This document shows positions 23,574 through 50,795 of a stretch of 64,000 bases of DNA, one piece after another. A model generated the notes under the pieces. The model saw only the letters and a list, made by a program, of their open reading frames with translations, was not told the DNA's origin and searched no databases. The stretch comes from a virus. The DNA lies in IMG/VR virus record IMGVR_UViG_3300042197_002234, positions 1 to 64,000 of that record. One strand, written 5' to 3'. Every line of letters starts with the position of its first letter. Position 1 is the stretch's first letter. The position numbers and the translations under genes were made by a program.

Positions 23574-24314
23574 TTACGGTGTTGTTACTCCTCTTTTTGA
23601 GACTACTTTGGAACTCATTTCATTTGCAAAAGTCATAGATTTTGGAACATCTTGGGTTTCATAATATTTTAAAATAAAAGAAGCGGTAAATGTATCGCCA
23701 GCACCACTAACATCAATTGTTTCTTTTGGGTTTAGAACTGGATATAAAACTTTATCGTATGTTGAACCTTTAGAACCTAGTGTCGCAATTATATTTTTAA
23801 ATGATGAAAAATTTTTATTATTATTCATTTCATTTTCATTTAATTTTACAAAAGTAAATGACTCTATAATTTCTTCATTTAGTTTTCTCTTGGAATCTAA
23901 AATTGAAAGTTTTGAGTTCTTACCAATAAAAACTAAATCTTCGTCAGTTAAAAATCCTTTGTTGTAATCACTAACTATTACAATATCAAATGAGTTTATA
24001 TATTTACCATCACTAAACTCAATACTGATAGGTTTTATTTTGTACTCACCTTCATCAAGCCTAATAAACATGTGATTACTTTTGGACTCAACAAATCTTG
24101 TTTTAGTTATTTGTTCTGTTTGGAACCAATGTATAATGTCCAAATCTTTAGATAACGATTTTAAATTTTCAACTACGTTGCCCGACATACCACTATTTTC
24201 AATAGTATTCATTGGTTTTAATACAGGTACAGGAGCTTCAGGGCAAACTCTAGTTACTTCAGAATATATAAATCTATCTAAACAAGATTCTCCAATTACT
24301 AATATTTTTATCAT
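23574..24314 (-). CDS. PfkB-family sugar kinase, heptose-7-phosphate kinase-like (HldE N-domain type)
   Basis: A 246-residue ribokinase-family protein. The N-terminus GESCLDRFIYSEVTRVCPEA followed by PVPVL closely resembles the RfaE/HldE kinase domain (LDRYxxGxxxRxSPEAPVPV), which phosphorylates D-glycero-D-manno-heptose-7-phosphate on the way to ADP-heptose. GMSGNVVENLKSL matches the GGAANVA sugar-binding block. VSGAGDTFTASF is the PfkB signature with catalytic Asp. It is shorter than bacterial HldE kinase domains (about 315 residues), mostly in the middle. No adenylyltransferase domain is attached. It is followed two bases later by a cupin gene. Substrate identity is inferred from motif similarity. 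Confidence 0.75.
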   Translation of the reverse strand: MIKILVIGESCLDRFIYSEVTRVCPEAPVPVLKPMNTIENSGMSGNVVENLKSLSKDLDIIHWFQTEQITKTRFVESKSNHMFIRLDEGEYKIKPISIEFSDGKYINSFDIVIVSDYNKGFLTDEDLVFIGKNSKLSILDSKRKLNEEIIESFTFVKLNENEMNNNKNFSSFKNIIATLGSKGSTYDKVLYPVLNPKETIDVSGAGDTFTASFILKYYETQDVPKSMTFANEMSSKVVSKRGVTTP

Positions 24315-24316
24315 AA

Positions 24317-25301: not shown

Positions 25302-25316
25302 TGAATGTTTTTATTC

Positions 25317-28441: not shown

Positions 28442-29689
28442 TTACAAATTACCTGTTATTCTATCACACCAACCTTTTGATTCTGAGTGAGGCCAAACAA
28501 CCCAATATTTTGGTTTATGTGTTGTTTGAAAATCTCTCCAAATTTTACAATAACCATCAGGGTCGGTCTTCATTCTTTTTATTTCATTTTTATCAGCGTC
28601 TTTCCTAAAGATAGTTTCGTCTTTATCGTCATGAAACGCAACCACCCAAAAATCATAGTCATCTTCAGGTACTTGTGAAAAACTTACATCTATACAGTGT
28701 TTGAATATTGATGCAAAACTATTTTCCCACACCTCTTCAGTTTCATATATTGTAGGATTGGGTGGGTAATGTTTGTCTAATGTGTATTGTTGAACGGCTC
28801 TTCTTGAAAACTTTAATCCCGCATAAATTTCATATTCTTTTAAAGTTCTAACAGAACCGAAACCATAAGGACCTTCATGACCTTCTTGAATTTCACCGTC
28901 CATACCAAATAATTTTCTGTTTGTTAAATGAGAGTGGTTATTTTTATTAACCCACTCTTTATCATCATCCCACTGTTTGGTTCTTCCTTTACGAGTATAT
29001 TCATGCCAAATCAAAACTTTATGTGGATGAAACAAATCATAACCCCAAGTGTAAGCACGTACCGCAATAGATATCTCCTCACCATGAAAATAGTATTCAG
29101 GGTTGTGTTGTACTTCTTTACTAAACTGACCTAATGTAAAACAAAAATGAGCAGAATAAAACCTGGCAGGGACAGGTTCTGTCATTTCTTGCCAACCAGG
29201 AATTGTTTCGGGTAAAAAGAAAACAGCCCCTTCGGGAATGAATCTATCAAAAGACATTCTCCAAGGTTCTCTAACTCTACCCTCGGGGTCGTTATCGGGG
29301 TCAAATGAAGAAACATATGCGGTTAATAAAGGTTTCTCAAAACCTTTTTCCTGTAATTGTTTAATCATTTTGATAAATTCAATATCCCACTCTTTTTCAA
29401 ATCGCATGTGGGAGTCTATTTGAAGGGTGTATTCTTCACCATCATATAGTTGTTGTACTTGATTTCTCGCCCAACAAACACCTTTTGATTCTGTGTATAA
29501 AACATCTAAGACTCTAAATCTATCATCATTTTTATATTTGTCTAAGTTGTCAAAACCATCTTCAGGATGATACTGACGACAAATACCAATACGTAAGTTC
29601 TTTGGAAACTTAGCGTATTTTAACATTGATTCAATTGTTGGAATAAGTTGCGGGTCCCTATACGAGGCTATTTGAACAAATATTTTCAT
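28442..29689 (-). CDS. Polypeptide alpha-GlcNAc-transferase-like protein (GT60 / GlcNAc family)
   Basis: A 415-residue protein. The N-terminal 110 residues (KIFVQIASYRDPQLIPTIES, then GVCWARNQVQQLYDGEEYTL and QIDSHMRFEKEWD) match the GlcNAc family, whose founding member is the Skp1 hydroxyproline GlcNAc-transferase; relatives modify Ser/Thr of mucin-like proteins. FHGEEISIAVRAYTWGYDLF holds the conserved catalytic-side Glu pair. Family members act on polypeptide hydroxyl groups, which is striking because the phage encodes Ser/Thr-rich virion proteins. It heads the minus-strand operon GT60, methyltransferase, GT, two-domain GT. The protein substrate is inferred from family knowledge only. Confidence 0.8.
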   Translation of the reverse strand: MKIFVQIASYRDPQLIPTIESMLKYAKFPKNLRIGICRQYHPEDGFDNLDKYKNDDRFRVLDVLYTESKGVCWARNQVQQLYDGEEYTLQIDSHMRFEKEWDIEFIKMIKQLQEKGFEKPLLTAYVSSFDPDNDPEGRVREPWRMSFDRFIPEGAVFFLPETIPGWQEMTEPVPARFYSAHFCFTLGQFSKEVQHNPEYYFHGEEISIAVRAYTWGYDLFHPHKVLIWHEYTRKGRTKQWDDDKEWVNKNNHSHLTNRKLFGMDGEIQEGHEGPYGFGSVRTLKEYEIYAGLKFSRRAVQQYTLDKHYPPNPTIYETEEVWENSFASIFKHCIDVSFSQVPEDDYDFWVVAFHDDKDETIFRKDADKNEIKRMKTDPDGYCKIWRDFQTTHKPKYWVVWPHSESKGWCDRITGNL

Positions 29690-30435: not shown

Positions 30436-31377
30436 ATGAAAAAGGTTTGTTTAAATTTAAGTGAGTCTAACGCTATTGGCGATACCTTATGTTCAACACC
30501 TGTTTTAAGAAAATTGTATCAATCATACAATTCAAAAATCATTGTTGTTACAAAATATCCCGAATTATTTAAACACAATCCTTATGTTGAAAAAGTTTAC
30601 GAATCAAATTCAATTAATTTAGATTATATTAATGAAAATTTTATAACACATAATTCATTTTACGAAAACGGTCAAAAAAATAATCGTGGTGTTGAATATA
30701 AACATAACACAATTGATATTAGACAATATCACGCAATCAAACTTGGTTTCATGTTAACCAAAGATGAAATGGAATTAGATTATATTCCTGACGAATTTGA
30801 ACAAATTAAAAATCTACCCGAAAAATATATTTTAATTCATCCAGTTCAGAATTGGCCAAGTAGAACATGGTCAGCATCTAATTGGATGGAGCTAACTAAA
30901 AGATTAAATGATAACAATATTAATGTTGTATCAGTAGGTAAAGACTCAAGTGAAACAGGATTTTTTAATGTTAAAAAACCAATTTTCAACTTTAAAATTG
31001 ATAAAGGTTTTAATTTGATGAACAAAACTAGTTTAAGTCAAAGTTGGCATCTAATTCAAAAGTCTTCTTGTTTTGTCACTATGGATTCTGGTTTATTACA
31101 TTTAGCGGGAACTACAGATGCTAATATAATACAATTAGGTAGTTCAATAAATCCTGAATTTAGAGCACCATATAGAAATGGTGGACAAACATATAAATAC
31201 CACTACGTTGGTGGTACATGTCCTTTAATGTGTGCTTCTGATATGAAATATGGTGTTAAAGAATGGGGTGACATACAGGGAGTTCCACCATTGATTGGGT
31301 GTTTAGAAGGTAAAAAAACTTTTGAATGTCACCCGTCTGTAGATAAAGTTTTTGAAAAAATAATGGAAATTATATGA
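30436..31377 (+). CDS. GT9-family glycosyltransferase, heptosyltransferase-like
   Basis: A 313-residue GT-B enzyme of the ADP-heptosyltransferase family. Visible are the N-terminal SNAIGDTLCSTPVLRKLYQ, the donor-site region IHPVQNWPSRTWSASNW, and VTMDSGLLHLAGTTDANIIQ near residue 215. The C-terminus has four Cys (262, 266, 289, 298) ending FECHPSV, like the FECHKSI end of the TibC-like protein at 38252-40357, so it may carry a similar metal finger. It is the first gene of the plus-strand glycan operon and overlaps the next gene by four bases. Confidence 0.8.
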   Translation: MKKVCLNLSESNAIGDTLCSTPVLRKLYQSYNSKIIVVTKYPELFKHNPYVEKVYESNSINLDYINENFITHNSFYENGQKNNRGVEYKHNTIDIRQYHAIKLGFMLTKDEMELDYIPDEFEQIKNLPEKYILIHPVQNWPSRTWSASNWMELTKRLNDNNINVVSVGKDSSETGFFNVKKPIFNFKIDKGFNLMNKTSLSQSWHLIQKSSCFVTMDSGLLHLAGTTDANIIQLGSSINPEFRAPYRNGGQTYKYHYVGGTCPLMCASDMKYGVKEWGDIQGVPPLIGCLEGKKTFECHPSVDKVFEKIMEII

Positions 31378-32408
31378 AGATAGGTATTTTATTTTCTGCT
31401 TATAACTCTGAAAAATATATTGATGGGTGTTTAACGCCATGGTTTAATTTAAAAAATGAATTTGACATTGTTATTGGATGTAATAGTGGAATGTATTCCG
31501 ACTATGTTAATTTTGGTATAGAACCTAAAAACAAATCGACCTTAAAAAAATTGGTTGAGTATGATTTGGATTTTTTAATCTCCACAGGTCCTAAATCATT
31601 ATTAGATGAGAATTCTAGTAAAAATTCAGTACTACATGTTTTAAAGAATTCTTGCGATATCATATGGATTTTAGACTCTGATGAATTTTACACTGAAAAT
31701 GAAATTAGAAATATTATAACATATATACAAAGAACCCCTGAATATGATTGGTATACTGTTAATTTTAAAAATTTAACTTTAACCGATAGAATGTTTATGG
31801 ACGGATTTAATCGCCCTAGAATTTTTAGAACAGACAGAAATGGGGGTATTAATGAATTTTATTTTGATAATCATATCACATATAACGATGGTGAGACTTT
31901 TGAATCCAAACCTCACACATCAATACCAAGAACGGTTGCTTGGGTAGCTCATTACTCTTGGTTGAATGGGGATGTTAGGTCTAAAGAAAAAATAACATAT
32001 CAAAATAATAGATTTTTAAATGGTTGCTCTTTTGAGTGGGATAGCGAAAACAACAAGTTAAGATTTTCTAAAGATTTTTATAATAGAGTTAATTTAGATA
32101 TACCAATTTTACATGAAGAAATTGATATTTTTTCTGATGAGTTTACAATTGATTTTAAAAGAAGTGAAAATAAATTTTATGTACAAAACATAGTAAAACC
32201 ACAAACTTTAACATTTAAAATATATGATTGTATTACTGGTGGATTAATATATGAAACAACCATGGAATTAATTCCTCAATATAATTATTTCATTTATCCA
32301 TCACAAAATAACTTTGATAGTGATGAGAATTTTAAAAAATTTAGAGTTGAGGTCTTGAAAGAAAATCAAATAATACATAATGAATTTATACATTTAAAAT
32401 ATGAATAA
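31374..32408 (+). CDS. GT-A glycosyltransferase with C-terminal beta domain
   Basis: A 344-residue protein. Residues 1-240 start KIGILFSAYNSEKYIDGCLT and contain IIWILDSDEFYTENE with the DxD motif, plus RPRIFRTDRNGG, as in GT2-like enzymes. Residues about 250-344 are a beta-sandwich domain (FTIDFKRSENKFYVQNIVKP) resembling beta domains in four other proteins of this operon. The gene overlaps both neighbours (4 and 8 bases), giving strict coupling. Sugar specificity is unknown. Confidence 0.7.
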   Translation: MKIGILFSAYNSEKYIDGCLTPWFNLKNEFDIVIGCNSGMYSDYVNFGIEPKNKSTLKKLVEYDLDFLISTGPKSLLDENSSKNSVLHVLKNSCDIIWILDSDEFYTENEIRNIITYIQRTPEYDWYTVNFKNLTLTDRMFMDGFNRPRIFRTDRNGGINEFYFDNHITYNDGETFESKPHTSIPRTVAWVAHYSWLNGDVRSKEKITYQNNRFLNGCSFEWDSENNKLRFSKDFYNRVNLDIPILHEEIDIFSDEFTIDFKRSENKFYVQNIVKPQTLTFKIYDCITGGLIYETTMELIPQYNYFIYPSQNNFDSDENFKKFRVEVLKENQIIHNEFIHLKYE

Positions 32409-33345
32409 TGTTTTTAAAATAGTTAATATAGAACCTGAAGGTAAAATACATTTTGTTTTTTCAGGGGATGAGTCGGAATGTGAAATATCCATAATAGATA
32501 AAAACACAGATTTAGTTGTTCACAAGACAAATATTTGGTTAACCCAAGATGTGACTTACTGGATTTCAACAGGTGAAAAAAATGCTAAAAGATTAAAAAA
32601 TGTGATTTTTAGAGTTAATTACAACGGTAAAAATTATGATGAGGAATTAAATTTTTCTGGTGAGAATAGATTTTTAGTTATTAATTCTGAACAAATAAAA
32701 CTTAACAATTGTGGTGATGATTTATTTCCAATAGTGTGTGAAATATTTTACGATAAAGTTTATGAAAGAGATTTTGTAAAAGTAGGAATTGATGATATAG
32801 TTGTTGATATTGGGGCTAACTATGGAGTTTTTTCATTGTACACTCAAATGTTCAAACCAAAAAAAGTATATTCTGTAGAACCTGTTAGAACCACCTTTAA
32901 ACAAATGAAAAAAAATTTAGACAAATATGGTGTTGTATGTATCAACAAATCAATAAGTTCAGAAAACGGTTATGAGTCTTTTGCTATTACCGATGTTAAT
33001 GGTAATAACTACGCATTGAAAAATATTGATGGGTATCACCCATCGTCTATAAAAAACCAAGAAATTGTTGAGACAACCACAATAAACCAATTAATATCTG
33101 ATTATGATATACCTCACATAAATTTCTTAAAAGTAGATTGTGAAGGTGGTGAGTATGATTTATTTACAACAATAGATAAAGAATATTTAAAAAATAAAAT
33201 ACAGAAAACCGCAATAGAATACCACTCAAGTAATATTAAAGATACTGTGGTTTCAACACTTTTGGAAAACGGGTTTGTTGTTGAAGATATCATAGGTGAA
33301 CCTGAAATAGGATTAATATACGCATACAACAAAAACTTTAATTAA
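32401..33345 (+). CDS. FkbM-family methyltransferase with N-terminal beta domain
   Basis: A 314-residue protein. Residues 1-95 form a beta domain (VNIEPEGKIHFVFSGDESEC) like that of the adjacent transferases. From about residue 130 it is an FkbM-type methyltransferase: IVVDIGANYGVFSLYTQMFK (motif I), YSVEPVRTTFKQMKKNL, and INFLKVDCEGGEYDLF. FkbM proteins O-methylate sugars and other hydroxyls in glycan and antibiotic loci. It overlaps the upstream gene by eight bases. Methylation of a fibre glycan is an attractive but unproven role. Confidence 0.8.
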   Translation: MNNVFKIVNIEPEGKIHFVFSGDESECEISIIDKNTDLVVHKTNIWLTQDVTYWISTGEKNAKRLKNVIFRVNYNGKNYDEELNFSGENRFLVINSEQIKLNNCGDDLFPIVCEIFYDKVYERDFVKVGIDDIVVDIGANYGVFSLYTQMFKPKKVYSVEPVRTTFKQMKKNLDKYGVVCINKSISSENGYESFAITDVNGNNYALKNIDGYHPSSIKNQEIVETTTINQLISDYDIPHINFLKVDCEGGEYDLFTTIDKEYLKNKIQKTAIEYHSSNIKDTVVSTLLENGFVVEDIIGEPEIGLIYAYNKNFN

Positions 33346-38251: not shown

Positions 38252-40357
38252 ATGAGAATAATACACGTAACACCAGGAATGATACCAATCCCACCTAATG
38301 GATGGGGTGCGGTAGAAAAAATAATTTGGGAATACCATAAAAATTTACAGAAGTTAGGTTATGAATCTGAAATTAGATACCTAAATGAGGTTAACTATAA
38401 AGATGGTGACATCGTACACATCCACATAGCCAATTTAGCTTTGGAGACATATGAAAGAGGAATACCATATATTTTCTCATTACATGACCACCATGTGGTA
38501 TATAATGGAAAAGATTCTTTTAATTATAAACAAAACTTAGAAGCAATTAAAAAATCAGTAGTTTCATTCTGTCACGCAGAATATTTGGTTGATTATTTTG
38601 ATGAAACCGATAAGTTGTTTTATTTGTCGCATGGTGTAAACACAGATTTCTTTAAAGTAGAAAATCCATACAGAAGTGAACATCGTTTATTGTGTTTAGC
38701 TAATAACGGAATCGGTGGTGATTCATCTTATGATAGGAAAGGTTTCAGATATGCAATTGAAGCTGCAAAAAAATTAAATTTACCAATCACTGTCGCGGGC
38801 CCCGATAACAACAAAAACTTCTTTCAACACCATTTAGATTTAATGGATTATGATAAACTAACATTGTTGTTTGATAATCCAAATGAAGACAGTATTTTAG
38901 AGTTGTATAAAAATCACTCAATATTTTTACACCCATCTTCATTAGAAGCTGGTCATCCAAATTTAACATTATTAGAGGCGATATCTTGTAATCTACCAAT
39001 AGTTGGAACTTACGAAGGTAATAGAAAAATACACGGTATGATTGTGACTGAAAGAGATTCAAATCGTGTTGCAAACTCAATTCAAGAAATAATATCAAAT
39101 TATGAATATTATGTTAATGAAACTTTTAAAAATAAAGAAAATTTTGATTGGTCTACAATAACAAATAGATTATCAAAAATGTACAATTTAGTTAGTATTA
39201 TTAAAAAAGAGTATAATTCTGAAGAAACAAAAAGTTTATTAATTAATAATATTGAAAATACATCAAGGTTTGATTATAAAAAAGATAATAACTTAACATT
39301 TAATGTTCATTTTGTAAACAACCCGTTTTTTGAAATTTTAGGTGATTCAGATAAAGAATATAATGTTCTTTTTTATGATAATGATGAACTAATTTATTCA
39401 ACAAAACTTAGAGCCAATATGTGGTCAAAACTTAATAGGTCATATTATACAAATTGGATAATTGAGGTTTACGATGAAGACAAATTAATTTATAGATACA
39501 CAACTAACTTTACAGGTAAAAGAGTTTTTATTTCATTTGACTCAAAGTCATTAGGGGATAATGTATCTTGGATACCGTATGTGTTAGAATTTAAGAAAAA
39601 ACACAATTGTAATGTTGTTGTTTCAACATTTTGGAATAAACTATTTAAGGATGTGTATCCCGAACTCGAGTTTGTTGAGCCAGGTAGTGTTGTGGATGAT
39701 TTAGTCGCAATGTATAGAATAGGATGGTTTTATGATAATAATCAAGAACCAGTTTTACCAAGTACTATTCCACTACAAAAAGCAATTACAAATATTTTGG
39801 GATTAGAGTTTGAGGAAATAAGACCAAGAATTCACTTTGAACCAAAAGAAAGATTGTTTGAGGAAAAGTATATCACAATCGCAAATGAATCTACTGCAGG
39901 TTTAAAGTTATGGAACAATCCTAATGGTTGGCCAGAATTAGTATCATATTTAAAATCAAAAGGTTATAGAGTGGTTAATGTATCTAAAAATGGTGAAAGA
40001 TTAAAAGGTGTTACACAACTAAAAGACACGTCAATTGAAAATACCATGAATGCTATTTATCATAGTGAGTTCTTTATTGGTTTATCTAGTGGGTTGTCTT
40101 GGTTAACATGGGGGTTAGGTAAACATGTAGTTATGATTTCAAACTTCACTGAGTATGACCATGAATTTACTTCAAACTGCACAAGAATTACAAACCCATC
40201 TGTCTGTCATGGATGTTGGAATAACCCTATGTTTAAGTTTGATAAGGGTGATTGGAATTGGTGTCCTGAGCATAAAGGAACTGAAAGACATTTTGAATGT
40301 CATAAATCAATAACTGCGGAAATGGTTATAGAAAAAATAAAACATTTATTACAATGA
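38252..40357 (+). CDS. GT4 glycosyltransferase fused to TibC-like protein O-heptosyltransferase
   Basis: A 701-residue bifunctional enzyme. Residues 1-320 are a GT4 GT-B domain (MIPIPPNGWGAVEKIIWEYH, YDRKGFRYAIEAAKKLNLPI, SLEAGHPNLTLLEAISCNLP). Residues about 343-701 match the autotransporter O-heptosyltransferase family of TibC and Aah: a beta domain (VHFVNNPFFEILGDSDKEYN), the segment VFISFDSKSLGDNVSWIPYV, YRIGWFYDNNQ, and a C-terminal finger with Cys652, 655, 671 and 683 (CHGCWNNP, NWCPEHKG, FECHKSI), as expected for the Fe-binding finger of that family. TibC-type enzymes transfer heptose from ADP-heptose to Ser of repetitive surface proteins. The next gene but one is a giant Ser/Thr repeat fibre. 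The fusion to GT4 may add a second sugar. Confidence 0.85.
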   Translation: MRIIHVTPGMIPIPPNGWGAVEKIIWEYHKNLQKLGYESEIRYLNEVNYKDGDIVHIHIANLALETYERGIPYIFSLHDHHVVYNGKDSFNYKQNLEAIKKSVVSFCHAEYLVDYFDETDKLFYLSHGVNTDFFKVENPYRSEHRLLCLANNGIGGDSSYDRKGFRYAIEAAKKLNLPITVAGPDNNKNFFQHHLDLMDYDKLTLLFDNPNEDSILELYKNHSIFLHPSSLEAGHPNLTLLEAISCNLPIVGTYEGNRKIHGMIVTERDSNRVANSIQEIISNYEYYVNETFKNKENFDWSTITNRLSKMYNLVSIIKKEYNSEETKSLLINNIENTSRFDYKKDNNLTFNVHFVNNPFFEILGDSDKEYNVLFYDNDELIYSTKLRANMWSKLNRSYYTNWIIEVYDEDKLIYRYTTNFTGKRVFISFDSKSLGDNVSWIPYVLEFKKKHNCNVVVSTFWNKLFKDVYPELEFVEPGSVVDDLVAMYRIGWFYDNNQEPVLPSTIPLQKAITNILGLEFEEIRPRIHFEPKERLFEEKYITIANESTAGLKLWNNPNGWPELVSYLKSKGYRVVNVSKNGERLKGVTQLKDTSIENTMNAIYHSEFFIGLSSGLSWLTWGLGKHVVMISNFTEYDHEFTSNCTRITNPSVCHGCWNNPMFKFDKGDWNWCPEHKGTERHFECHKSITAEMVIEKIKHLLQ

Positions 40358-40734
40358 AAATAGAAGTATCAATTGGTGAGATTGTTGACAAATTAACAAT
40401 TTTGGAAATTAAAAAAGATAAAATAAAGGATGAAAATAAATTGGTTGATATCTTAAAAGAGTATAACTATTTAAAAGATGTTGTAACAAATGAAATTGGA
40501 TTTTCATTAGAATCCGAAGAATATAAAGATTTATTGGAAACAAATAAAAAACTTTGGGATATTGAAGACCATATTAGAAATAAAGAAAAAAGAAAATCTT
40601 TTGATATTGAATTTATTGAGTTGGCTAGAAATGTGTATATTACAAATGATGTTAGAGCATCACAAAAAAAAGATATAAATCTGAAACTTAATTCAGAATT
40701 TATAGAACACAAATCATATTCTGACTATAAATAA
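40354..40734 (+). CDS. DUF6165 family protein
   Basis: A 126-residue protein matching the DUF6165 pattern: IEVSIGEIVDKLTILEIKKD at the start, LWDIEDHIRNKEKRKSFDIE in the middle, and FIELARNVYITNDVRASQKK. It overlaps the TibC-like gene by four bases (ATGA), so it is coupled to it. Members occur in lipopolysaccharide and capsule loci; their biochemical role is not known to me. The fused coupling suggests an accessory or regulatory partner of the heptosyltransferase. Confidence 0.8.
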   Translation: MKIEVSIGEIVDKLTILEIKKDKIKDENKLVDILKEYNYLKDVVTNEIGFSLESEEYKDLLETNKKLWDIEDHIRNKEKRKSFDIEFIELARNVYITNDVRASQKKDINLKLNSEFIEHKSYSDYK

Positions 40735-40765
40735 AAAAAGGGGGGTTTTAAAACTCCCTTTTTTT
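40733..40765. terminator. Bidirectional terminator between glycan operon and giant fibre gene
   Basis: A seven-A run and GGGGG pair with CTCCC and a seven-T run around a short T/A loop. A run on one side and T run on the other let it work for both converging transcripts. Its T tract runs into the fibre gene stop codon at 40764. Confidence 0.85.
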
Positions 40766-43700
40766 ATAATGGGTCATTACATTCGTTATAAACTAATGTG
40801 TATGTAAAATATCTAGGACCCGCATTAGTACCATCTGAGTTAAAACCAACTATAATGTTTGTGTTACATTCAAGTATTTCGTCCTGTAATGTAAGGGTAA
40901 AACAAGCCACGCCAGCGGCGTTAAATGAGGTAACATCACTTGCTATTTCAGTTATAGTAAATGTAGATGATGTTAAATCATCACATTCGTATTTAAAAAG
41001 ATATGCGGTTACACTATTAGCCAAACCATCAACAGGACTTGTTACAGTACCACACAATTTTATAGTTCCAGAACTTAACATGTCGATAGGTACTGGTACA
41101 CCTATAAATCCTTGTGTTCTGGTATCGAAGGGTGATATTCCATCCCAAGCGATATCCCAAGGACATCCATTCCAACCACAAGTATTATTGGCGATGTAAA
41201 CGTCAGTATCATTAGGTCCTTGTGTCCAACTACCTGAATTTGATGCTAATAAAAATTGTCTTTTAATGTTAATTGTTGCATCACCTGTAGTGCCTTCAAC
41301 AATACCACAAGACCCCGCAACTGTTAAACCTGTGACACTAGTTACCGTAGTAGCACCATCGGTGACAGTTAAAGAACCACCACCACTTGATGTACCCGAA
41401 CTACCCGAGGTTCCTGATGAACCTGTTTGACCTGCAGTACCTGAACTACCTGAACTACCACTTGAACCTGAGGTACCGCTAGCCCCACTAACACCACTTG
41501 TGCCCGCAGTTCCATTAGCTCCGCTAGTACCTGAAGTTCCTTTAGTTCCTGAGGTTCCACTAGACCCTGAAGTACCCGAACTACCTGAAGAACCACTTGA
41601 ACCTGATGTTCCACTTGTTCCTGAAGTACCGTTAACTCCTGAAGTACCACTTGTACCATTAACTCCTGAAGTACCACTTGTACCAATCGAACCATCACAA
41701 CCATTACAACATACTTTGAAACATAATACATCACCATAAGAGAATGGACTTGCGGAACTTGAAGATGCGAATATCGGACCTTCAATAAAGAAGGAAGTAG
41801 AATTCAATCTTCCAACACCAGACCAATCTGAATAGTGTACAAATTTTGTTGGGTCTGCTTGATTATATATTGTTAAATTTCCACCACAAATACATTTGTT
41901 GAAAACTTCATATTGATTTACACCATTGTTATCAAAATCATAGAAGTGTAAATATGTTGCTGCCGATACAGTTAACGTAGTTGCTGAAGAACCTGTGATA
42001 AACGCAAATTCACCATTAGAATCAGGAGTACTATCGTTTGTTAACGTATATGGTAAACAATAAGCTGATACCCCACTAGTTCCTGATGTTCCACTTGTTC
42101 CTGAACTACCTGACGTTCCTCTAGTTCCTGATGTTCCTGAAGAGCCGCTGCTGCCACTTGAGCCCGAAGAACCCGACGTTCCACTTGTTCCTGATGAACC
42201 ACTTGAACCTGAACTACCTGATGTTCCACTTGAACCTGAAGAACCTGAACTTCCTGATGAACCACTGCTACCACTAGTACCAGATGTACCCGAACTACCT
42301 GATGAACCACTTGAACCTGAAGAACCGCTACTTCCACTTGTGCCTGATGTACCTGAGCTACCTGATGTTCCGCTAGTTCCTGAACTACCTGATGAGCCGC
42401 TTGAACCTGACGAACCACTAGTGCCTGATGTTCCTGAAGAACCACTACTTCCACTAGAACCTGAACTTCCTGAAGAACCACTTGTGCCCGAAGTACCACT
42501 ACTTCCGCTAGACCCTGAACTTCCGCTCGAACCTGAAGTACCCGAAGAACCGCTACTACCGCTTGTTCCTGATGTTCCACTTGAGCCTGACGTTCCGCTA
42601 GTCCCTGAAGAACCACTTATACCTGAAGTTCCTGAACTACCTGATGTTCCTGAAGAGCCAGATGACCCCGAAGAACCTGAGCTACCTGATGAACCGCTAG
42701 ACCCACTTGTACCCGCAGTCCCTGAACTTCCTGATGTTCCACTTGTTCCTGATGAGCCACTTGTACCGCTCGAACCTGAGGAACCACTATTTCCACTTGA
42801 ACCCGACGTTCCACTTGTTCCTGAAGAACCACTACTACCGCTTGAGCCCGAGCTACCTGAAGTACCACTAGTTCCTGAACTTCCTGAAGAGCCGCTACTA
42901 CCACTTGACCCTGAAGAACCGCTACTACCGCTTGTTCCTGAAGTTCCACTATTTCCTGAAGAACCACTTGAACCACTACTACCGCTAGAACCCGATGTTC
43001 CACTAGTTCCTGAACTTCCTGAAGAGCCGCTACTACCACTTGACCCTGATGTTCCGCTAGTCCCTGAAGAACCTGAAGTACCACTTGTACCACTAGTTCC
43101 CGAACTACCTGATGAACCACTACTACCGCTAGAACCTGATGAACCGCTAGTTCCACTTGAACCTGAAGAGCCAGAACTTCCTGAAGAACCACTACTACCG
43201 CTCGAACCTGAACTACCTGATGTCCCACTTGTACCTGAAGAACCGCTTGTACCTGACGTGCCGCTTGAGCCTGATGACCCACTACTTCCTGAACTACCGC
43301 TAGAACCTGAAGTTCCTGAACTGCCAGAAGAACCACTACTACCGCTAGAACCTGAAGTTCCTGAAGAACCTGATGTTCCGCTAGTACCTGATGACCCTGA
43401 ACTTCCACTACTACCTGAAGAACCGCTTGTACCGCTAGTACCCGAACTACCTGAAGTTCCACTTGTTCCTGATGACCCTGAACTTCCACTACTACCGCTA
43501 GAACCTGATGTTCCACTAGTTCCCGAAGAGCCGCTTGTACCGCTTGTTCCTGAACTACCCGAAGAACCACTACTACCGCTTGAGCCCGAGCTACCTGAAG
43601 TTCCGCTTGTTCCTGACGAGCCGCTACTACCCGAACTTCCACTACTACCCGATGTTCCACTCGTTCCTGATGAGCCACTTGTGCCACTAGAACCTGAGCT

Positions 43701-46700
43701 ACCTGAAGAACCGCTAATTCCACTTGTTCCCGAAGAACCTGAACTTCCTGAAGAACCACTACTTCCTGATGTACCGCTAGTACCGCTAGTACCTGAACTA
43801 CCGCTAGAACCTGAACTTCCTGAAGAACCGCTGCTACCACTAGAGCCTGATGTGCCGCTAGTTCCCGAACTTCCACTTGTACCGCTAGTTCCTGAAGAAC
43901 CTGAACTACCACTAGAACCCGAAGCACCGCTTGTACCTGATGAGCCGCTTGAACCTGAAGAGCCTGATGAACCACTACTACCGCTAGTTCCTGATGTACC
44001 ACTTGACCCACTACTACCGCTTGAACCTGAACTTCCTGATGAGCCTGATGTACCGCTTGTTCCTGAAGAACCACTTGAGCCTGAACTTCCCGATGAACCA
44101 CTACTACCGCTAGTTCCTGATGAGCCACTACTACCACTTGTACCAGATGTACCTGAACTTCCTGAAGTACCACTAGTTCCTGATGTTCCCGAACTACCAC
44201 TCGTACCCGAACTTCCTGAAGAACCGCTAGTACCTGCAGTACCTGAAGAACCCGATGTTCCACTTGAACCTGAGCTACCTGATGAACCGCTACTACCGCT
44301 AGTTCCTGATGAACCACTAGTACCGCTAGTACCTGAACTACCGCTTGAACCTGAAGAACCACTACTTCCACTTGTGCCGCTAGTACCTACAGTTCCTGAT
44401 GAACCACTAGTACCGCTAGTACCTGAACTACCGCTTGAACCTGAAGAACCACTACTTCCACTAGTACCCGAAGTACCTGAACTTCCTGATGTACCGCTTG
44501 AGCCTGAACTACCCGATGTTCCACTAGTTCCTGAAGAACCACTAGACCCTGAACTACCTGAAGTTCCGCTAGTTCCTGAAGAACCTGATGTTCCGCTAGT
44601 TCCTGAAGAACCACTAGACCCTGAACTACCTGAAGTTCCGCTAGTTCCACTTGAGCCTGATGACCCTGAACTTCCACTACTACCTGAAGAACCACTTGTA
44701 CCGCTAGTACCCGAACTACCTGAAGTTCCACTTGTTCCTGAAGAGCCTGATGAACCACTACTACCGCTTGAGCCCGAGCTACCTGAAGAGCCGCTTGTTC
44801 CTGCAGTTCCTGAACTACCTGAAGAACCACTACTACCTGATGTTCCACTAGTTCCTGATGAACCACTTGTACCGCTAGTTCCACTTGAACCACTACTACC
44901 TGAAGTACCTGAAGAGCCACTAGACCCTGAACTTCCGCTACTACCGCTTGAACCCGATGTTCCACTTGTACCGCTAGTTCCTGATGTTCCTGAAGAACCT
45001 GATGTTCCGCTTGTTCCTGAACTACCTGATGAACCACTACTACCACTAGTCCCTGAAGTACCACTAGTTCCTGAAGTACCACTAGTTCCCGAACTTCCTG
45101 AAGACCCTGATGTTCCGCTAGTACCTACAGTACCTGATGTTCCTGAAGAACCACTTGTACCGCTTGTACCTGACGAACCACTAGACCCACTAGAACCTGA
45201 ACTACCACTTGTTCCTGAACTTCCTGAAGTCCCACTAGTACCTGATGAACCTGATGTTCCACTAGTTCCACTTGAACCTGAACTTCCTGAAGAGCCACTT
45301 GTACCGCTAGTTCCTGATGTTCCACTAGACCCTGAACTTCCTGATGAACCCGAAGTTCCACTAGTTCCTACAGTACCACTACTTCCGCTAGACCCTGAAC
45401 TTCCGCTCGAACCTGAAGTACCCGAAGAACCGCTACTACCGCTTGTTCCTGATGTACCTGACGAGCCTGATGTTCCACTAGACCCTGAACTTCCTGAAGT
45501 CCCACTAGTACCAGAACTTCCTGATGTTCCGCTAGTTCCTGAACTACCGCTTGTTCCTGATGTACCTGACGAGCCTGATGTTCCACTAGACCCTGAACTT
45601 CCTGATGTTCCGCTAGTACCACTTGTACCCACAGTTCCTGAGCTTCCTGACGTACCGCTTGAGCCTGAGCTTCCTGAAGTCCCACTAGTACCAGAACTTC
45701 CTGATGTTCCGCTAGTTCCTGATGAACCGCTTGAACCTGAGCTACCTGAAGAACCTGATGTTCCACTTGTACCCGAACTTCCTGAAGACCCTGAACTTCC
45801 ACTACTACCGCTAGAACCTGATGTTCCACTAGTTCCCGAAGAGCCGCTTGTACCGCTTGTTCCTGAAGTTCCACTTGAACCTGAAGTACCGCTAGAACCA
45901 GAAGAGCCGCTACTACCACTAGAACCTGATGTTCCACTTGTACCCGCAGTACCTGAGCTTCCTGATGAACCGCTACTACCTGATGAGCCACTTGTACCGC
46001 TTGTTCCTGAACTACCCGAAGAACCACTACTACCGCTAGAACCTGATGTTCCACTTGTACCCGAAGTACCTGAGCTTCCTGACGTTCCACTAGTTCCCGA
46101 AGAACCACTAGACCCTGAAGAGCCTGAACTACCTGAAGTTCCACTAGTTCCTGATGAGCCACTTGTGCCCGAAGTTCCACTTGAACCTGAACTTCCTGAT
46201 GAACCGCTACTACCTGATGTCCCACTTGTACCTGAAGAACCACTAGTTCCTGATGAACCACTACTACCACTTGTACCAGATGTACCTGAACTACCACTTG
46301 TACCTGATGTTCCTGAAGAACCGCTTGACCCTGAAGAACCTGAGCTACCTGAAGTTCCGCTTGTTCCCGAAGAGCCTGATGTACCACTTGTGCCTGAAGT
46401 TCCACTTGAACCTGAACTTCCTGATGAACCTGACGTACCGCTAGTTCCTGAAGAACCACTACTTCCGCTTGAACCTGAGGTTCCACTTGTACCTACAGTC
46501 CCTGATGTACCTGAACTACCTGATGTTCCGCTACTTCCACTAGAACCTGAACTTCCGCTTGTTCCTGATGTTCCTGAACTACCACTTGTACCGCTAGTTC
46601 CTGATGAACCACTTGAACCCGAACTTCCTGATGAACCACTACTACCGCTAGTACCATTAGTTCCACTTGTTCCCGAAGAACCTGATGTTCCACTTGACCC

Positions 46701-49700
46701 ACTACTACCACTTGTACCTGATGTTCCTGAAGAACCGCTTGACCCTGAAGAACCTGAGCTACCTGAAGTTCCGCTTGTACCGCTTGTTCCCGAACTTCCT
46801 GATGTACCGCTAGTTCCTGAAGAACCACTTGTTCCTGAAGTTCCACTTGAACCTGAACTTCCTGATGAGCCACTACTACCGCTTGAACCTGAGGAACCGC
46901 TACTACCGCTAGTTCCTGATGAACCACTACTTCCACTAGAACCTGATGTTCCGCTAGTACCTGAACTACCGCTCGAGCCTGATGTACCGCTAGTACCCGA
47001 ACTACCTGATGAACCACTACTACCACTTGAACCTGAGCTACCTGATGTTCCGCTAGTTCCAGAAGAACCACTAGACCCTGAACTTCCACTACTTCCTGAT
47101 GAACCTGATGTTCCACTAGTACCTACAGTCCCACTTGAGCCAGATGTACCCGAACTACCTGACGAACCACTAGAACCTGAACTACCACTTGTTCCGCTAG
47201 TTCCTGATGTTCCACTTGTTCCTGAAGTCCCACTAGTACCTGATGAACCTGATGTTCCACTTGTTCCCGAAGAGCCTGATGTACCACTTGAGCCTGAACT
47301 ACCAGAAGACCCCGATGTACCACTACTTCCACTTGTGCCGCTAGTTCCTGATGAACCATCTGTTCCACTAGTACCTGAGCTACCTGAAGTGCCGCTAGTT
47401 CCTGATGAACCACTTGACCCTGATGTTCCGCTAGTTCCTGAAGTTCCGCTAATACCCGAAGTACCACTTGTACCGCTAGTACCTGATGTTCCTGAAGAAC
47501 CATCAGTTCCACTTGTTCCTGAAGTACCACTACTACCATCTGTTCCTGATGTTCCACTTGACCCTGATGTACCCGAAGTTCCTGAGCTACCATCAGTACC
47601 TGAAGTTCCGCTTGAACCCGATGTTCCTGATGAACCACTAGTTCCTGATGAACCACTAGTTCCTGATGAACCACTAGTTCCGCTAGTTCCTGATGAGCCA
47701 TCAGTACCACTACTACCGTCTGTACCACTAGAACCTGATGTTCCGTTAGTTCCACTTGTACCATTACTACCGTCAGTACCTGAACTCCCACTAGAACCTG
47801 ATGTTCCGCTAGTTCCACTTGTACCATTACTACCGTCAGTACCTGAAGTTCCGCTTGTTCCCGAACTACCACTAGTACCTGATGTTCCACTAGTTCCTGA
47901 CGAACCACTGCTACCACTAGTACCTGATGTGCCATTACTACCATCAGTTCCTGATGAACCTGAAGTTCCACTAGTTCCGCTACTACCATCTGTTCCGCTT
48001 GTTCCTGAAGTACCGCTTGAACCTGATGTTCCACTTGTTCCTGAAGTACCGCTTGAACCTGAAGTTCCACTTGTTCCTGAAGAACCTGAGGTACCACTAC
48101 TTCCGTCAGTACCGCTACTACCATCTGTTCCGCTTGTTCCCGATGAACCACTTATACCTGAAGTACCGCTACTACCATCTGTTCCACTAGTTCCTGAAGT
48201 ACCACTACTACCATCAGTTCCGCTAGTTCCACTTGTTCCTGATGAACCATCTGTTCCGCTAGTTCCGCTTGAACCTGAAGTTCCGCTAGTTCCCGAAGAA
48301 CCTGATGTACCACTAGTACCACTACTACCATCTGTTCCTGATGTACCACTAGTTCCTGAAGTACCATTACTTCCATCAGTTCCGCTTGAACCTGATGTAC
48401 CACTTGTTCCTTTAGAACCATTTACACCGCTAATACCTGAAGAACCTGATGTACCATTAGTTCCTGAAGTTCCACTTGTTCCTGATGAACCATCTGTTCC
48501 GCTAGTTCCACTTGAACCATCTGTTCCGCTAGTTCCACTTGTTCCTGATGAACCGCTTGTTCCTGAGGTTCCACTTGTTCCAGAACTTCCATCAGTACCA
48601 CTTGTTCCTGAAGTTCCTGATGAACCATCTGTTCCGCTAGTACCTGATGTTCCTGAAGAGCCATCCGTTCCGCTATTACCCGAAGTTCCCGATGAACCAT
48701 CTGTTCCTGAATTTCCGCTAGTTCCCGATGAACCATCTGTTCCTGAAGTTCCGCTAGTTCCGCTTGAACCATCTGTTCCTGAAGTTCCGCTAGTTCCGCT
48801 TGAACCATCCGTACCTGAAGTTCCACTAGTTCCCGATGAACCATCTGTACCTGAAGTTCCACTAGTTCCCGATGAACCATCCGTTCCGCTAGTACCCGAA
48901 GTTCCCGATGAACCATCCGTTCCGCTAGTACCACTAGTTCCTGATGAACCATCTGTTCCGCTAGTACCACTAGTTCCTGATGAACCATCTGTTCCTGACG
49001 TACCACTAGTTCCTGATGAACCATCTGTTCCACTGGTTCCTGAAGAACCGCTTGTCCCACTACTACCATCCGTACCTGAACTACCACTTGTTCCTGAAGT
49101 GCCGCTACTACCATCAGTACCTGAAGTTCCACTAGTACCACTTGAGCCATCAGTACCTGATGAACCATCCGTACCACTAGTACCACTAGTTCCTGAAGTT
49201 CCGCTTGAACCTGATGTTCCACTAGTTCCTGAAGTACCATTACTTCCGTCAGTTCCGCTTGAACCTGATGTTCCACTAGTTCCTGAACTTCCATCAGTAC
49301 CACTTGTTCCTGAAGAACCATCAGTTCCGCTAGTACCTGAAGTTCCACTTGTTCCTGAAGAACCGTCTGTCCCACTAAAACCACTTGTCCCTGAAGTTCC
49401 ATTTGAACCATCTGTACCTGAAGTACCACTTGTTCCTGAAGAACCACTAGTACCCGAAGAACCGTCAGTTCCGCTTGAACCTGATGTGCCGCTACTACCA
49501 TCAGTCCCTGAACTACCATCAGTCCCTGAACTACCATCAGTCCCTGAACTACCATCAGTCCCTGAACTACCTGACGTACCACTAGTTCCTGATGTACCAT
49601 TAGAACCATCCACACCACTTATTCCTGAAGAACCTGAAGAACCACTTGTTCCTGAAGAACCGTTTGTCCCACTAGAACCACTTGTCCCTGAACTTCCATC

Positions 49701-50795
49701 TGTACCACTAGAACCACTTGTCCCTGAACTTCCATCTGTACCACTAGTACCACTTGTTCCTGAAGAACCGTCTGTTCCACTCGAGCCACTTGTTCCTGAA
49801 GAACCGTCTGTTCCACTAGAGCCACTTGTGCCTGAACTTCCATCTGTTCCTGACGAACCATCAGTACCTGAACTTCCACTTGTCCCTGAACTTCCATCCG
49901 TACCTGATGAACCATCAGTACCTGAACTTCCTGAAGAACCACTAGTTCCTGAACTACCATCAGTACCTGAACTTCCATCAGTTCCGCTTGTACCTGAAGA
50001 ACCACTTGTACCTGAAGAACCACTTGTACCTGAACTTCCGCTTGTTCCTGATGAACCTGAAGTTCCTGATGAACCACTTGAGCCTGAACTTCCTGATGTA
50101 CCTGAACTTCCTGATGTACCGCTAGTTCCTGATGACCCACTTGAACCTGAAGTTCCGCTTGTTCCTGAACTACCATCTTGACCGCTAGTCCCTGATGTAC
50201 CATCTTGACCGCTAGTACCTGAACTACCATTTGTACCTGAAGACCCACTACTTCCGCTAGACCCTGAACTACCGCTACTACCTGAACTACCGCTACTACC
50301 TGAACTTCCTGAAGTTCCACTAGTACCTGAACTACCATCTTGACCGCTAGTCCCTGATGTGCCATCTTGACCGCTAGTACCTGAACTACCTGGAGAGCCA
50401 GTACCGCTTGTTCCCGAAGACCCACTACTACCTGGAGAGCCAGTACCGCTTGTTCCCGAAGACCCACTACTACCTGAAGTTCCTGACGAACCACTATTTC
50501 CACTTAAACCTGAACTACCTGAAGTACCGCTACTACCCGAAGACCCACTTGTACCTGAACTACCATCAGTACCTGATGTGCCATCAACACCACTTGTTCC
50601 TGAGCTACCGTCAATACCACTTGTTCCTGAAGTTCCACCTAAAGCCAAAGCATCTGCAACTTGTTTTATGGTTGCTTTATATGATGAGCCTGCAGGATTT
50701 TGGGAAGTGTCCCCTGTTATTACTATGTGGATTACGTCGTTTTCCGAAACTCCTGTTGCTAGTACCCTGTCTGTAAGTCTTTGATAATTCGGCAT
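40764..50795 (-). CDS. Giant collagen-like Gly-Ser/Thr repeat fibre protein
   Basis: A 3343-residue protein. Residues 1-52 (MPNYQRLTDRVLATGVSEND) form a small N-terminal domain of the kind that attaches fibres to the virion. Residues about 52-2907 are roughly 950 Gly-X-Y triplets, almost all G-T-S, G-S-S or G-T-D with no proline. Residues 2908-3031 are a Cys-containing beta domain (VSAYCLPYTLTNDSTPDSNG). A second repeat block covers 3032-3131. Residues 3132-3343 are a C-terminal beta domain with several Cys (IANNTCGWNGCPWDIAWDG), likely the trimerisation or receptor tip. Collagen-like phage fibres are known; this size and lack of Pro are unusual. It faces the glycosyltransferase operon tail to tail. 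Confidence 0.9.
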   Translation of the reverse strand: MPNYQRLTDRVLATGVSENDVIHIVITGDTSQNPAGSSYKATIKQVADALALGGTSGTSGIDGSSGTSGVDGTSGTDGSSGTSGSSGSSGTSGSSGLSGNSGSSGTSGSSGSSGTSGTGSPGSSGSSGTSGTGSPGSSGTSGQDGTSGTSGQDGSSGTSGTSGSSGSSGSSGSSGSSGSSGSSGSSGTNGSSGTSGQDGTSGTSGQDGSSGTSGTSGSSGSSGTSGTSGSSGTSGSSGSSGSSGTSGSSGTSGSSGTSGSSGTSGSSGTSGTDGSSGTDGSSGTSGSSGSSGTDGSSGTDGSSGTSGSSGTDGSSGTDGSSGTSGSSGTDGSSGTSGSSGTDGSSGTSGTSGTDGSSGTSGSSGTDGSSGTSGSSGTNGSSGTSGSSGSSGISGVDGSNGTSGTSGTSGSSGTDGSSGTDGSSGTDGSSGTDGSSGTSGSSGTDGSSGTSGSSGTSGTSGTDGSNGTSGTSGFSGTDGSSGTSGTSGTSGTDGSSGTSGTDGSSGTSGTSGSSGTDGSNGTSGTSGTSGSSGTSGTSGTSGTDGSSGTDGSSGTSGTSGTDGSSGTSGTSGSSGTDGSSGTSGSSGTSGTDGSSGTSGTSGTDGSSGTSGTSGTDGSSGTSGTSGTDGSSGTSGTSGTDGSSGTSGTSGTDGSSGTSGTSGTDGSSGTSGTSGTDGSSGTSGTSGTDGSSGTSGNSGTDGSSGTSGNSGTDGSSGTSGTSGTDGSSGTSGTSGTDGSSGTSGTSGTSGSSGTSGTSGTDGSSGTSGTDGSSGTSGTSGTNGTSGSSGISGVNGSKGTSGTSGSSGTDGSNGTSGTSGTSGTDGSSGTSGTSGSSGTSGTSGSSGTSGTDGSSGTSGTSGTDGSSGTSGTSGTDGSSGTSGISGSSGTSGTDGSSGTDGSSGTSGSSGTSGTSGSSGTSGTSGTSGSSGTSGTSGTDGSSGTSGTSGSSGTDGSNGTSGTSGSSGSSGTSGTSGTSGSSGTSGTSGTDGSNGTSGTSGTSGSSGSSGTDGSNGTSGTNGTSGSSGTDGSSGTDGSSGTSGTSGSSGTSGSSGTSGSSGTSGSSGTSGTDGSSGTSGTSGSSGTSGTDGSSGTSGTSGTDGSSGTSGTSGTSGTSGISGTSGTSGTSGSSGSSGTSGTSGSSGTSGTDGSSGTSGTSGSSGTSGSSGSSGSSGTSGSSGTSGTSGSSGTSGTSGTSGTSGTSGTSGSSGSSGSSGSSGTSGSSGTVGTSGTSGSSGSSGSSGSSGSSGTSGTSGSSGSSGSSGSSGSSGTSGTSGSSGSSGTSGTSGSSGSSGSSGTSGSSGSSGSSGSSGSSGSSGSSGTSGTSGSSGTSGTSGSSGTSGTSGTSGSSGSSGSSGSSGTSGTSGSSGSSGTSGSSGTSGTNGTSGSSGSSGSSGSSGSSGTSGTSGSSGTSGTSGSSGSSGSSGTSGSSGTSGTVGTSGTSGSSGSSGSSGTSGTSGSSGSSGSSGTSGTSGTSGSSGTSGTSGSSGSSGSSGSSGTSGTSGSSGTSGTSGSSGSSGTSGSSGTSGTSGSSGSSGSSGSSGTSGTSGSSGTSGTSGSSGSSGSSGSSGTSGTSGSSGTSGTSGTSGSSGSSGSSGSSGTSGTSGSSGSSGSSGSSGTAGTSGTSGSSGSSGSSGSSGTSGSSGTSGTSGTSGSSGTSGTSGSSGSSGSSGSSGSSGTSGTSGSSGSSGSSGSSGTSGTSGSSGTSGTSGSSGSSGTSGSSGTVGTSGTSGTSGSSGSSGTSGSSGTSGTSGSSGTSGTSGSSGTSGTSGSSGSSGTSGSSGTSGTSGSSGSSGTSGSSGSSGSSGSSGTVGTSGTSGSSGSSGSSGTSGTSGTSGSSGSSGSSGTSGTSGSSGTSGTSGSSGTSGSSGSSGSSGSSGTSGTSGSSGTSGTVGTSGTSGSSGSSGTSGTSGTSGTSGTSGSSGSSGSSGTSGTSGSSGTSGTSGTSGTSGSSGSSGSSGSSGSSGTSGSSGSSGTSGTSGSSGTSGTSGSSGSSGSSGTAGTSGSSGSSGSSGSSGSSGSSGTSGTSGSSGTSGTSGSSGSSGSSGSSGSSGTSGTSGSSGSSGSSGTSGTSGSSGTSGTSGSSGSSGSSGTSGTSGSSGSSGTSGSSGTSGTSGSSGSSGSSGSSGTSGTSGSSGTVGTSGTSGSSGSSGSSGSSGTSGTSGSSGTSGSSGSSGSSGSSGTSGSSGTAGTSGSSGSSGTSGSSGTSGTSGTSGSSGTSGTSGSSGSSGTSGSSGSSGSSGSSGSSGTSGTSGSSGSSGSSGSSGSSGTSGTSGSSGSSGSSGSSGSSGTSGASGSSGSSGSSGTSGTSGSSGTSGTSGSSGSSGSSGSSGSSGSSGTSGTSGTSGSSGSSGSSGSSGTSGISGSSGSSGSSGTSGSSGTSGTSGSSGSSGSSGSSGTSGTSGSSGSSGSSGSSGSSGTSGTSGSSGTSGTSGSSGSSGSSGSSGTSGTSGSSGTSGTSGSSGSSGSSGSSGTSGTSGSSGTSGSSGSSGSSGSSGTSGSSGSSGSSGSSGSSGTSGTSGSSGTSGTSGSSGSSGSSGSSGSSGSSGSSGTSGSSGSSGSSGSSGSSGTSGTSGTSGSSGTSGTSGSSGSSGSSGSSGTSGTSGSSGSSGSSGSSGNSGTSGTSGSSGSSGSSGSSGSSGSSGTSGTSGSSGSSGSSGSSGTSGTSGSSGNSGSSGSSGTSGSSGTSGTSGSSGTAGTSGSSGSSGSSGSSGSSGSSGTSGSSGTSGISGSSGTSGTSGSSGTSGTSGSSGSSGTSGSSGSSGSSGSSGTSGTSGSSGSSGSSGSSGSSGTSGTSGSSGSSGSSGSSGTSGTSGSSGTSGTSGSSGSSGSSGSSGSSGTSGTSGSSGSSGSSGSSGSSGTSGSSGSSGSSGTSGTSGSSGSSGSSGSSGTSGTRGTSGSSGTSGTSGTSGVSAYCLPYTLTNDSTPDSNGEFAFITGSSATTLTVSAATYLHFYDFDNNGVNQYEVFNKCICGGNLTIYNQADPTKFVHYSDWSGVGRLNSTSFFIEGPIFASSSSASPFSYGDVLCFKVCCNGCDGSIGTSGTSGVNGTSGTSGVNGTSGTSGTSGSSGSSGSSGTSGSSGTSGTKGTSGTSGANGTAGTSGVSGASGTSGSSGSSGSSGTAGQTGSSGTSGSSGTSSGGGSLTVTDGATTVTSVTGLTVAGSCGIVEGTTGDATINIKRQFLLASNSGSWTQGPNDTDVYIANNTCGWNGCPWDIAWDGISPFDTRTQGFIGVPVPIDMLSSGTIKLCGTVTSPVDGLANSVTAYLFKYECDDLTSSTFTITEIASDVTSFNAAGVACFTLTLQDEILECNTNIIVGFNSDGTNAGPRYFTYTLVYNECNDPL
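41400..41697 (-). repeat. Second short Gly-X-Y repeat block
   Basis: About 33 triplets between the two C-terminal globular domains of the giant fibre (residues about 3032-3131). It contains more variety than the main block, with G-V-N, G-T-K, G-A-N and G-Q-T triplets. Confidence 0.85.
42074..50640 (-). repeat. Main Gly-X-Y repeat tract of about 950 nine-base units
   Basis: Nine-base units encode G-(T/S/D/N)-(S/D). Units carrying Asp or Asn (G-T-D-G-S-S, often as a twelve-residue period) occupy the N-terminal third, bases about 47360-50640. The remaining bases 42074-47360 hold almost only G-T-S and G-S-S. Gly, Ser and Thr codons vary between units, so the DNA repeats are not exact copies. Confidence 0.93.

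Follow-up and report, generated by a model that had tools for sequence, protein, structure and literature searches.

Enzymes of the TibC/Aah type, referred to here as the BAHT family, act in the cytoplasm in the cases known. The described members glycosylate Ser-rich proteins, and their acceptors are beta-helical autotransporters of the cell surface, not G-x-x rods (PMC4358343). In TibC, Asp110 serves as the catalytic base, Thr226, Lys230, Arg286 and Trp305 contact the donor, four cysteines form an iron finger, and a beta-hairpin 'thumb' makes the contact that is required for the active dodecameric ring (PMC4358343). Arg286 contacts the adenine, and the corresponding alanine mutant is dead or weak. 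The relative Aah is known to use both ADP-heptose isomers (PMC4358343).

Phage-encoded glycosylation of virion proteins has been described for mycobacteriophages (Freeman 2023, as cited in PMC12619734), and the moraphages, large aquatic phages with mostly Bacteroidota hosts, carry four core glycosyltransferase groups (PMC12619734). The cuticle collagen of Riftia contains galactosyl-threonine, with glycosylated Thr in place of hydroxyproline (Mann 1996 and Bann 2000, as cited in PMC10141479). Among open-licence papers, we found none on a phage BAHT enzyme or on the type of fibre described below. In the locus studied here, a BAHT domain is encoded beside a collagen-like protein that is nearly free of proline, and we consider it likely that the phage uses this domain to O-glycosylate its own putative fibre.

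Results

Genes of the locus

The window analysed is a stretch of 64,000 nucleotides, bases 1–64000 of a 195,527-bp virus record. It encodes a T4-like contractile tail (sheath, tube, baseplate hub and head-tail adaptor), and the phage is a T4-like myophage, a large tailed phage. All open reading frames named in an initial annotation of this DNA were recovered at the same positions, and the features of the locus are collected in Table 1. Further along the window, 61413–62066 (+) encodes a short, probably partial DegT/DnrJ-type aminotransferase (217 aa) followed by a WbqC-like protein (62191–62859), and the product of 56583–57344 (+), with NUMOD3 and DUF559-like domains, resembles a homing endonuclease.

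Table 1. Features of the glycosyltransferase and fibre region, with window positions and the basis of each assignment
Position	Strand	Feature	Basis
23574..24314	-	PfkB sugar kinase, short, nearest HldE/RfaE domain I	PF00294 48.4 bits; TIGR02198 114 bits
24317..24709	-	Cupin protein adjoining PfkB gene	PF07883 30.1 bits; PF07385 22.3 bits
25350..27023	-	HtrL/YibB-like glycosyltransferase	PF09612 70.3 bits, cut-off 24.1
28442..29689	-	GT60-family protein, core gene of lineage, second candidate protein-O-glycosyltransferase	PF11397 224.8 bits, cut-off 21; PHROG 24687 558.8 bits
29819..30343	-	Thr/Pro-rich (mucin-like) protein, candidate GT60 acceptor	Sequence; directly upstream of GT60 gene
30436..31377	+	GT9-family protein, first gene of glycosyltransferase operon	PF01075 63.6 bits
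31374..32408	+	GT2-like glycosyltransferase	PF00535 19.6 bits, under cut-off 23.3
32401..33345	+	FkbM-type methyltransferase	PF05050 56 bits
33347..36031	+	894-aa protein with GT4 domain	PF00534 37.9 bits
36031..37011	+	326-aa operon protein, no family	No Pfam match; distantly similar to 33347–36031 protein (BLAST kinship in relatives)
37013..37558	+	SAM methyltransferase	PF13489 33.7 bits
37565..38251	+	GT2-like glycosyltransferase	PF00535 19.9 bits, under cut-off 23.3
38252..40357	+	GT4-BAHT fusion, 701 aa	N-terminal GT4 (residues 1 to ~320); TibC/Aah-like O-glycosyltransferase (BAHT) domain (residues 371–698)
40354..40734	+	DUF6165-like, 126 aa; 3' end of operon, between BAHT gene and fibre	PF19662 38.3 bits, cut-off 27
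40764..50795	-	Collagen-like protein, putative fibre, proposed acceptor, 3343 aa	Triplet counts; PF01391; composition in relatives

A BAHT domain that lacks two family features

The initial annotation had read the C-terminal part of the 38252–40357 product as a TibC-like domain of the O-heptosyltransferase family, and this assignment is well supported. The TIGR04414 (TibC/Aah) profile scores 286.6 bits over residues 372–698 (cut-off 200), and residues 371–693 match the solved TibC structure in the PDB with an E-value of 1e-49. An AF2 model built from a 39-row alignment (pLDDT 89.5) superimposes on TibC with a TM-score of 0.87 (E 2e-32), but reaches only 0.37–0.53 with the LPS heptosyltransferases WaaC and WaaF and another GT9 structure. 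The N-terminal domain matches Pfam GT4 with 39.6 bits.

The donor site is kept in part. The catalytic base Asp110 of TibC corresponds to Asp436, and Thr226, Lys230 and Trp305 correspond to Thr548, Lys552 and Trp617, but Arg286 is replaced by Thr598. All four iron-finger cysteines (Cys339, 342, 358 and 370 in TibC) are retained as Cys652, 655, 671 and 683, and the position of Pro300 is occupied by Ser, as in Aah. The beta-hairpin thumb is absent, since the span measures about 27 residues rather than 37 and the model contains no hairpin. In a 129-row alignment, the catalytic Asp and the four cysteines are present in all 49 phage rows, whereas Arg286 is kept in 78/79 bacterial rows and only 1/49 phage rows. 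Similarly, the thumb span is 37 residues long in 77 of the 79 bacterial rows and 26–28 residues in 45 of the 49 phage rows.

More distant phage enzymes, found later, retain the catalytic Asp in 25/25 cases, and a few of them (L595, L600 and L601) retain both the Arg and a span of thumb length. With or without these distant enzymes, every phage BAHT row falls on one side of a branch with 100% support, although the sampling of this tree is not neutral because the bacterial rows were picked by peptide patterns taken from the phage enzymes. The best bacterial identity is about 40%. The loss of Arg286 and of the thumb therefore points to a divergent phage branch of the BAHT family whose donor sugar is uncertain, and the absence of both in this enzyme, with Arg286 lost in most phage relatives, counts against the fibre reading. 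In three loci (L270, L599 and L612), two BAHT domains are adjacent.

Relatives L012 and L272 have the counterpart of the GT2-like gene 37565–38251 fused with their BAHT gene, and the DUF6165-like gene stays adjacent to the BAHT gene in L003, L270 and L272.

A collagen-like protein nearly without proline

The protein of 3343 residues made of G-T-S and G-S-S triplets, as the initial annotation had described it, was verified by counting. Its 982 G-x-x triplets fall into three runs. The longest extends over residues 133–2910 and has 926 triplets without a break; 463 are GSS, 403 GTS and 57 GTD, such that the rod is almost entirely G-S/T-S and has nearly no proline. Pfam Collagen (PF01391) matches with 56.8 bits (cut-off 27.2). 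The 278-kDa protein, with 1927 Ser and Thr residues, can be divided into an N-terminal part of about 53 aa, the rod, a globular insert (~2911–3031), a short repeat and a C-terminal head of about 200 aa. The rise of a collagen helix is 0.286 nm per residue, and the main run would thus be about 0.8 micrometre long if it forms such a helix.

The reading frame is the real one: synonymous variation runs through its codons for Gly, Ser and Thr, and relatives share the same amino-acid repeat. The longest exact DNA repeat in the gene is 84 bp, with none reaching 100 bp; short reads could therefore resolve the gene, and its length is no obvious assembly artefact. A P-x-x open frame of 2613 aa that runs antisense to the fibre gene (42340–50181, +) is a consequence of how the G-S/T-S repeat is encoded and probably does not represent a gene. 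The fibre head has no Pfam or PHROG match, tblastn with the C-terminus gave no match among cultured phages, and the remaining 131 kb of the record hold no further Gxx protein.

BAHT genes accompany proline-free Ser/Thr rods

Viral contigs were fetched by DNA patterns for either G-[S/T]-[S/T] or G-P-x repeats, with the enzyme playing no part in the selection; these patterns also match other two-letter codons, which a translation filter takes out. A TIGR04414 match is present in 23 of 50 contigs with Pro-free G-S/T-S/T repeats and in 0 of 48 with G-P-x repeats (p = 9e-9). When only contigs of 20–80 kb are considered, the counts are 14/38 and 0/35. A control family, GT2, occurs in 7/25 and 4/25 contigs of the two kinds, respectively, while BAHT occurs in 8/25 and 0/25 of the same records. 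The BAHT difference therefore does not reflect a general richness in glycosyltransferases. Lineage and base composition, which were only partly controlled, may still confound the comparison. No BAHT domain was seen in 27 of the 50 S/T-rod contigs, many of which are fragments. The rod lies within about 8 kb of the BAHT gene in 16 of the 23 co-occurring contigs. The arrangement varies: the two genes may be convergent, the rod may lie upstream on the same strand, or both may overlap on one strand, as in L600.

The same association is evident when the enzyme is taken as the starting point. An S/T-type G-x-x open reading frame is located no more than 10 kb from 27 of 47 non-redundant phage BAHT loci, the other 20 having none in the available DNA; it lies downstream at 26 of the 27, always convergent, as in the window. 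Within the lineage, this 10-kb test finds such a frame at 4 of 33 loci for GT60 (p 5e-5) and at 1 of 38 for DNA polymerase (p 2e-8). Bacterial BAHT loci give 0/45. The rods of relatives carry Ser or Thr at position X in about 71–99% of triplets and at position Y in 67–100%. Pro is nearly absent from them, except for a Pro-type rod in L270 and one L064 rod with 10% Pro. The co-occurrence in relatives that the initial annotation had anticipated is thus borne out, and BAHT is tied strongly and specifically to Pro-free S/T rods across unrelated viral sequences.

A set of 30 records picked by DNA polymerase or GT60 contains BAHT in 7, S/T repeats in 12 and both in 4, but these counts are uninformative because most of the rod contigs without BAHT break off within the rods, on the side where the enzyme gene would lie. 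The contigs of the relatives G008, G009, G010, G011, G021 and G023 start inside G-x-x repeat genes, so that the flank with BAHT is concealed by the assembly break.

Two examples outside this record show the same neighbourhood. In the cultured Microcystis phage Mel-JY01, a BAHT domain resides in a 1226-aa protein annotated as 'methyltransferase FkbM', and it is adjoined by a plus-strand open frame of 1016 aa, 528 aa of which are G-x-x repeat. The public record (PP395634; L353 2–3049) annotates minus-strand genes over this collagen-like frame, and since it starts inside the repeat, the genome may be incomplete there. In a 735-kb uncultured phage, BAHT and a G-x-x repeat are within ~4 kb of each other.

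These data bear on the possibility that the operon alters the envelope of the infected host (LPS or capsule), perhaps as a protection from superinfection, with the BAHT-like protein adding sugar to a lipid-linked glycan and the fibre gene adjoining it through a shared variable host-interaction region. GT9, GT4, FkbM, HtrL/YibB, WbqC and DegT genes are indeed typical of envelope glycan loci, and PfkB/nucleotidyltransferase heptose genes are carried by cyanophages. We nevertheless regard this explanation as quite unlikely. By family, the domain is one of the protein-specific TibC/Aah enzymes and not an LPS transferase. It accompanies Pro-free S/T rods and is missing where the rods are G-P-x, a bias that GT2 does not share, and GT60 of the same lineage exhibits no tie to the fibre.

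GT60 and its mucin-like neighbours

The initial annotation had also enlisted the GT60-like protein as a modifier of the fibre. Its family assignment is confirmed (Table 1), and it is a core gene, being conserved like DNA polymerase (identity ~74–81% in the top 80 relatives). Cultured phages with relatives of this gene are Xanthomonas and Stenotrophomonas jumbo phages. A PDB search with the protein sequence gave no match; its model is modest (pLDDT 74.9), with polypeptide GalNAc-transferases as the best PDB matches (E 1e-9, TM about 0.41–0.48). The proposed role on the fibre was abandoned, as the neighbourhood test (4/33 loci) does not support it and the gene has mucin-like neighbours instead. 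A Thr/Pro or poly-Thr frame is located directly upstream on the same strand at 18/33 non-redundant GT60 loci, compared with 6/38 polymerase and 0/47 BAHT loci (p 9e-4 and 3e-9, respectively, against GT60). Judged from these sequences, GT60 probably acts on mucin-like Thr/Pro segments rather than on the fibre, which makes a second, separate protein-glycosylation pair plausible.

Mucin-like Pro/Thr or poly-Thr segments are present in 51169–53838, 29819–30343 and 24744–25301 (-). The tail sheath protein (9154–12489, -) carries an insert with runs of 6–7 Thr, another possible O-glycosylation site.

Such runs are what would be expected if the BAHT-like enzyme glycosylated some other protein, whether the sheath insert, the Thr/Pro-rich virion proteins or a host adhesin, and were linked to the fibre only indirectly. 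The cell-surface nature of the known acceptors and the 20 BAHT loci without a visible S/T rod fit this alternative as well. However, mucin-like frames directly upstream are a property of GT60 and not of BAHT loci, and the link with S/T rods is specific and turns up again in loci whose genes are ordered differently, so that we judge another main acceptor to be unlikely. An autotransporter in particular was dismissed, because TIGR04415, the repeat of known BAHT acceptors, is absent from the 195-kb record.

The donor sugar

Heptose, the sugar named in the initial annotation, is a first guess that is based on the BAHT family and the retained residues. The phage relatives of the PfkB protein are cyanophage 'heptose kinase' genes, and its nearest family is RfaE domain I, as had been suggested, but its score is far under the TIGR02198 equivalog cut-off of 345; a contribution to donor supply is possible. 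Searches of the 195-kb record for the HldE C-domain (TIGR02199), a GmhA-type SIS_2 protein and a nucleotidyltransferase with an HxGH motif yielded no match, and synthesis of ADP-heptose by the phage itself was rejected on these grounds. The donor sugar, and thus heptose, is therefore uncertain, given these results and the loss of Arg286. Likewise, the heptosyltransferase-like protein 30436–31377 does belong to GT9, yet it is weak to all LPS-heptosyltransferase equivalogs and below every one of their cut-offs. No tie to the fibre could be made for either the GT9 or the PfkB gene.

The record also contains a thymidylate-synthase gene, which might suggest that the glycosyltransferases hypermodify phage DNA. 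Asn or Asp at one motif separates dTMP synthase from dCMP hydroxymethylase, and this protein has the GLPFN motif of the former and not the Asp of the latter; it looks like an ordinary dTMP synthase. TibC/Aah and GT60 are, moreover, protein-acting families. Although glycosyltransferases of some phages do modify DNA (PMC12619734), we consider this role highly improbable here.

Discussion

The proposal of the initial annotation that a phage-encoded protein-O-glycosyltransferase acts on the phage's own Ser/Thr fibre stands in its core, with most donor and catalytic residues kept and the genes co-occurring, while the sugar has become doubtful and the parts given to GT60, GT9 and PfkB are not supported. 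What the sequences show directly is the homology and fold of the BAHT domain, its catalytic and metal-site residues, the composition of the fibre and the specific genomic co-occurrence. Besides the lost Arg286 and thumb, several points weigh against the proposal: the autotransporter acceptors of known BAHT enzymes, the rod contigs and BAHT loci in which the partner was not seen, and a phage donor pathway that is incomplete in the record.

We infer the donor sugar, the acceptor, the timing, the triple helix of the rod and the benefit as follows. The C-terminal BAHT domain would be a cytoplasmic protein-O-glycosyltransferase with the Ser/Thr array of the fibre as its main acceptor. During infection, it would attach a sugar, probably heptose or a related one drawn mainly from the host nucleotide-sugar pool, to Ser (possibly Thr) in the G-S/T-S triplets, either while the fibre is being assembled or earlier. 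The fused GT4 domain and the operon's remaining glycosyltransferases and methyltransferases would then extend or decorate this sugar. The sugars may stabilise a triple helix that is devoid of proline and hydroxyproline, and they could coat the rod with a hydrophilic layer that resists proteases.

More tentatively, this pairing might hold across viruses, with BAHT-like enzymes turning otherwise unstable Pro-free G-S/T-S/T collagens into stable glycosylated triple helices of up to ~0.8 micrometres in which glycosylated Ser/Thr replaces hydroxyproline. Enzymes that lack the thumb would then assemble into small oligomers rather than a ring like that of TibC, and their donor might not be ADP-heptose.

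If the fibre is indeed glycosylated in this manner, large aquatic phages would gain a named enzyme and acceptor for the glycosylation of their proteins, and the TibC/Aah family would extend from bacterial adhesins to viral fibres. It would also suggest how extended collagen-like rods can fold without Pro, and would provide an annotation rule by which a BAHT-like enzyme is to be expected close to a Pro-free G-S/T-S/T repeat. Mel-JY01, being in culture, would allow the idea to be tested.

Compared with TibC/Aah (TIGR04414; PDB 4RAP and 4RB4; PMC4358343), the phage enzyme has the same fold with an N-terminal beta-barrel, the catalytic Asp, the Thr226/Lys230/Trp305 set and the Cys4 iron finger. 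It differs in that it is phage-encoded, is fused to a GT4 domain, lacks the thumb and Arg286, and adjoins a G-x-x rod where TibC/Aah have an autotransporter as partner. The GT60 protein has PF11397 in common with the polypeptide alpha-GlcNAc-transferases of Dictyostelium and Trypanosoma cruzi (PMC3188802, PMC6939170, PMC3769586), a group defined by transfer from UDP-GlcNAc to Thr/Ser or hydroxyproline. Its model and its mucin-like neighbour gene fit such a candidate role; unlike those enzymes, it is encoded by a phage core gene. The moraphages resemble this phage in being large aquatic tailed phages, and the paper describing them (PMC12619734) names no heptosyltransferase or collagen-like fibre. 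In mycobacteriophages, according to the same citing source, the C-termini of capsid and tail-tube proteins are glycosylated, whereas the present case, known from genes, pairs a BAHT-like enzyme with a collagen-like fibre. Riftia collagen, as summarised in the citing paper, is like the phage rod a G-x-x protein with hydroxy amino acids instead of hydroxyproline. It offers an earlier case of a collagen stabilised through glycosylated Thr, although it is an animal protein and glycosylation of the phage fibre is a prediction. Glycosylation of phage virions in general is already known; what is likely new here is a BAHT-like enzyme that fails two features of its family, together with a new kind of likely acceptor.
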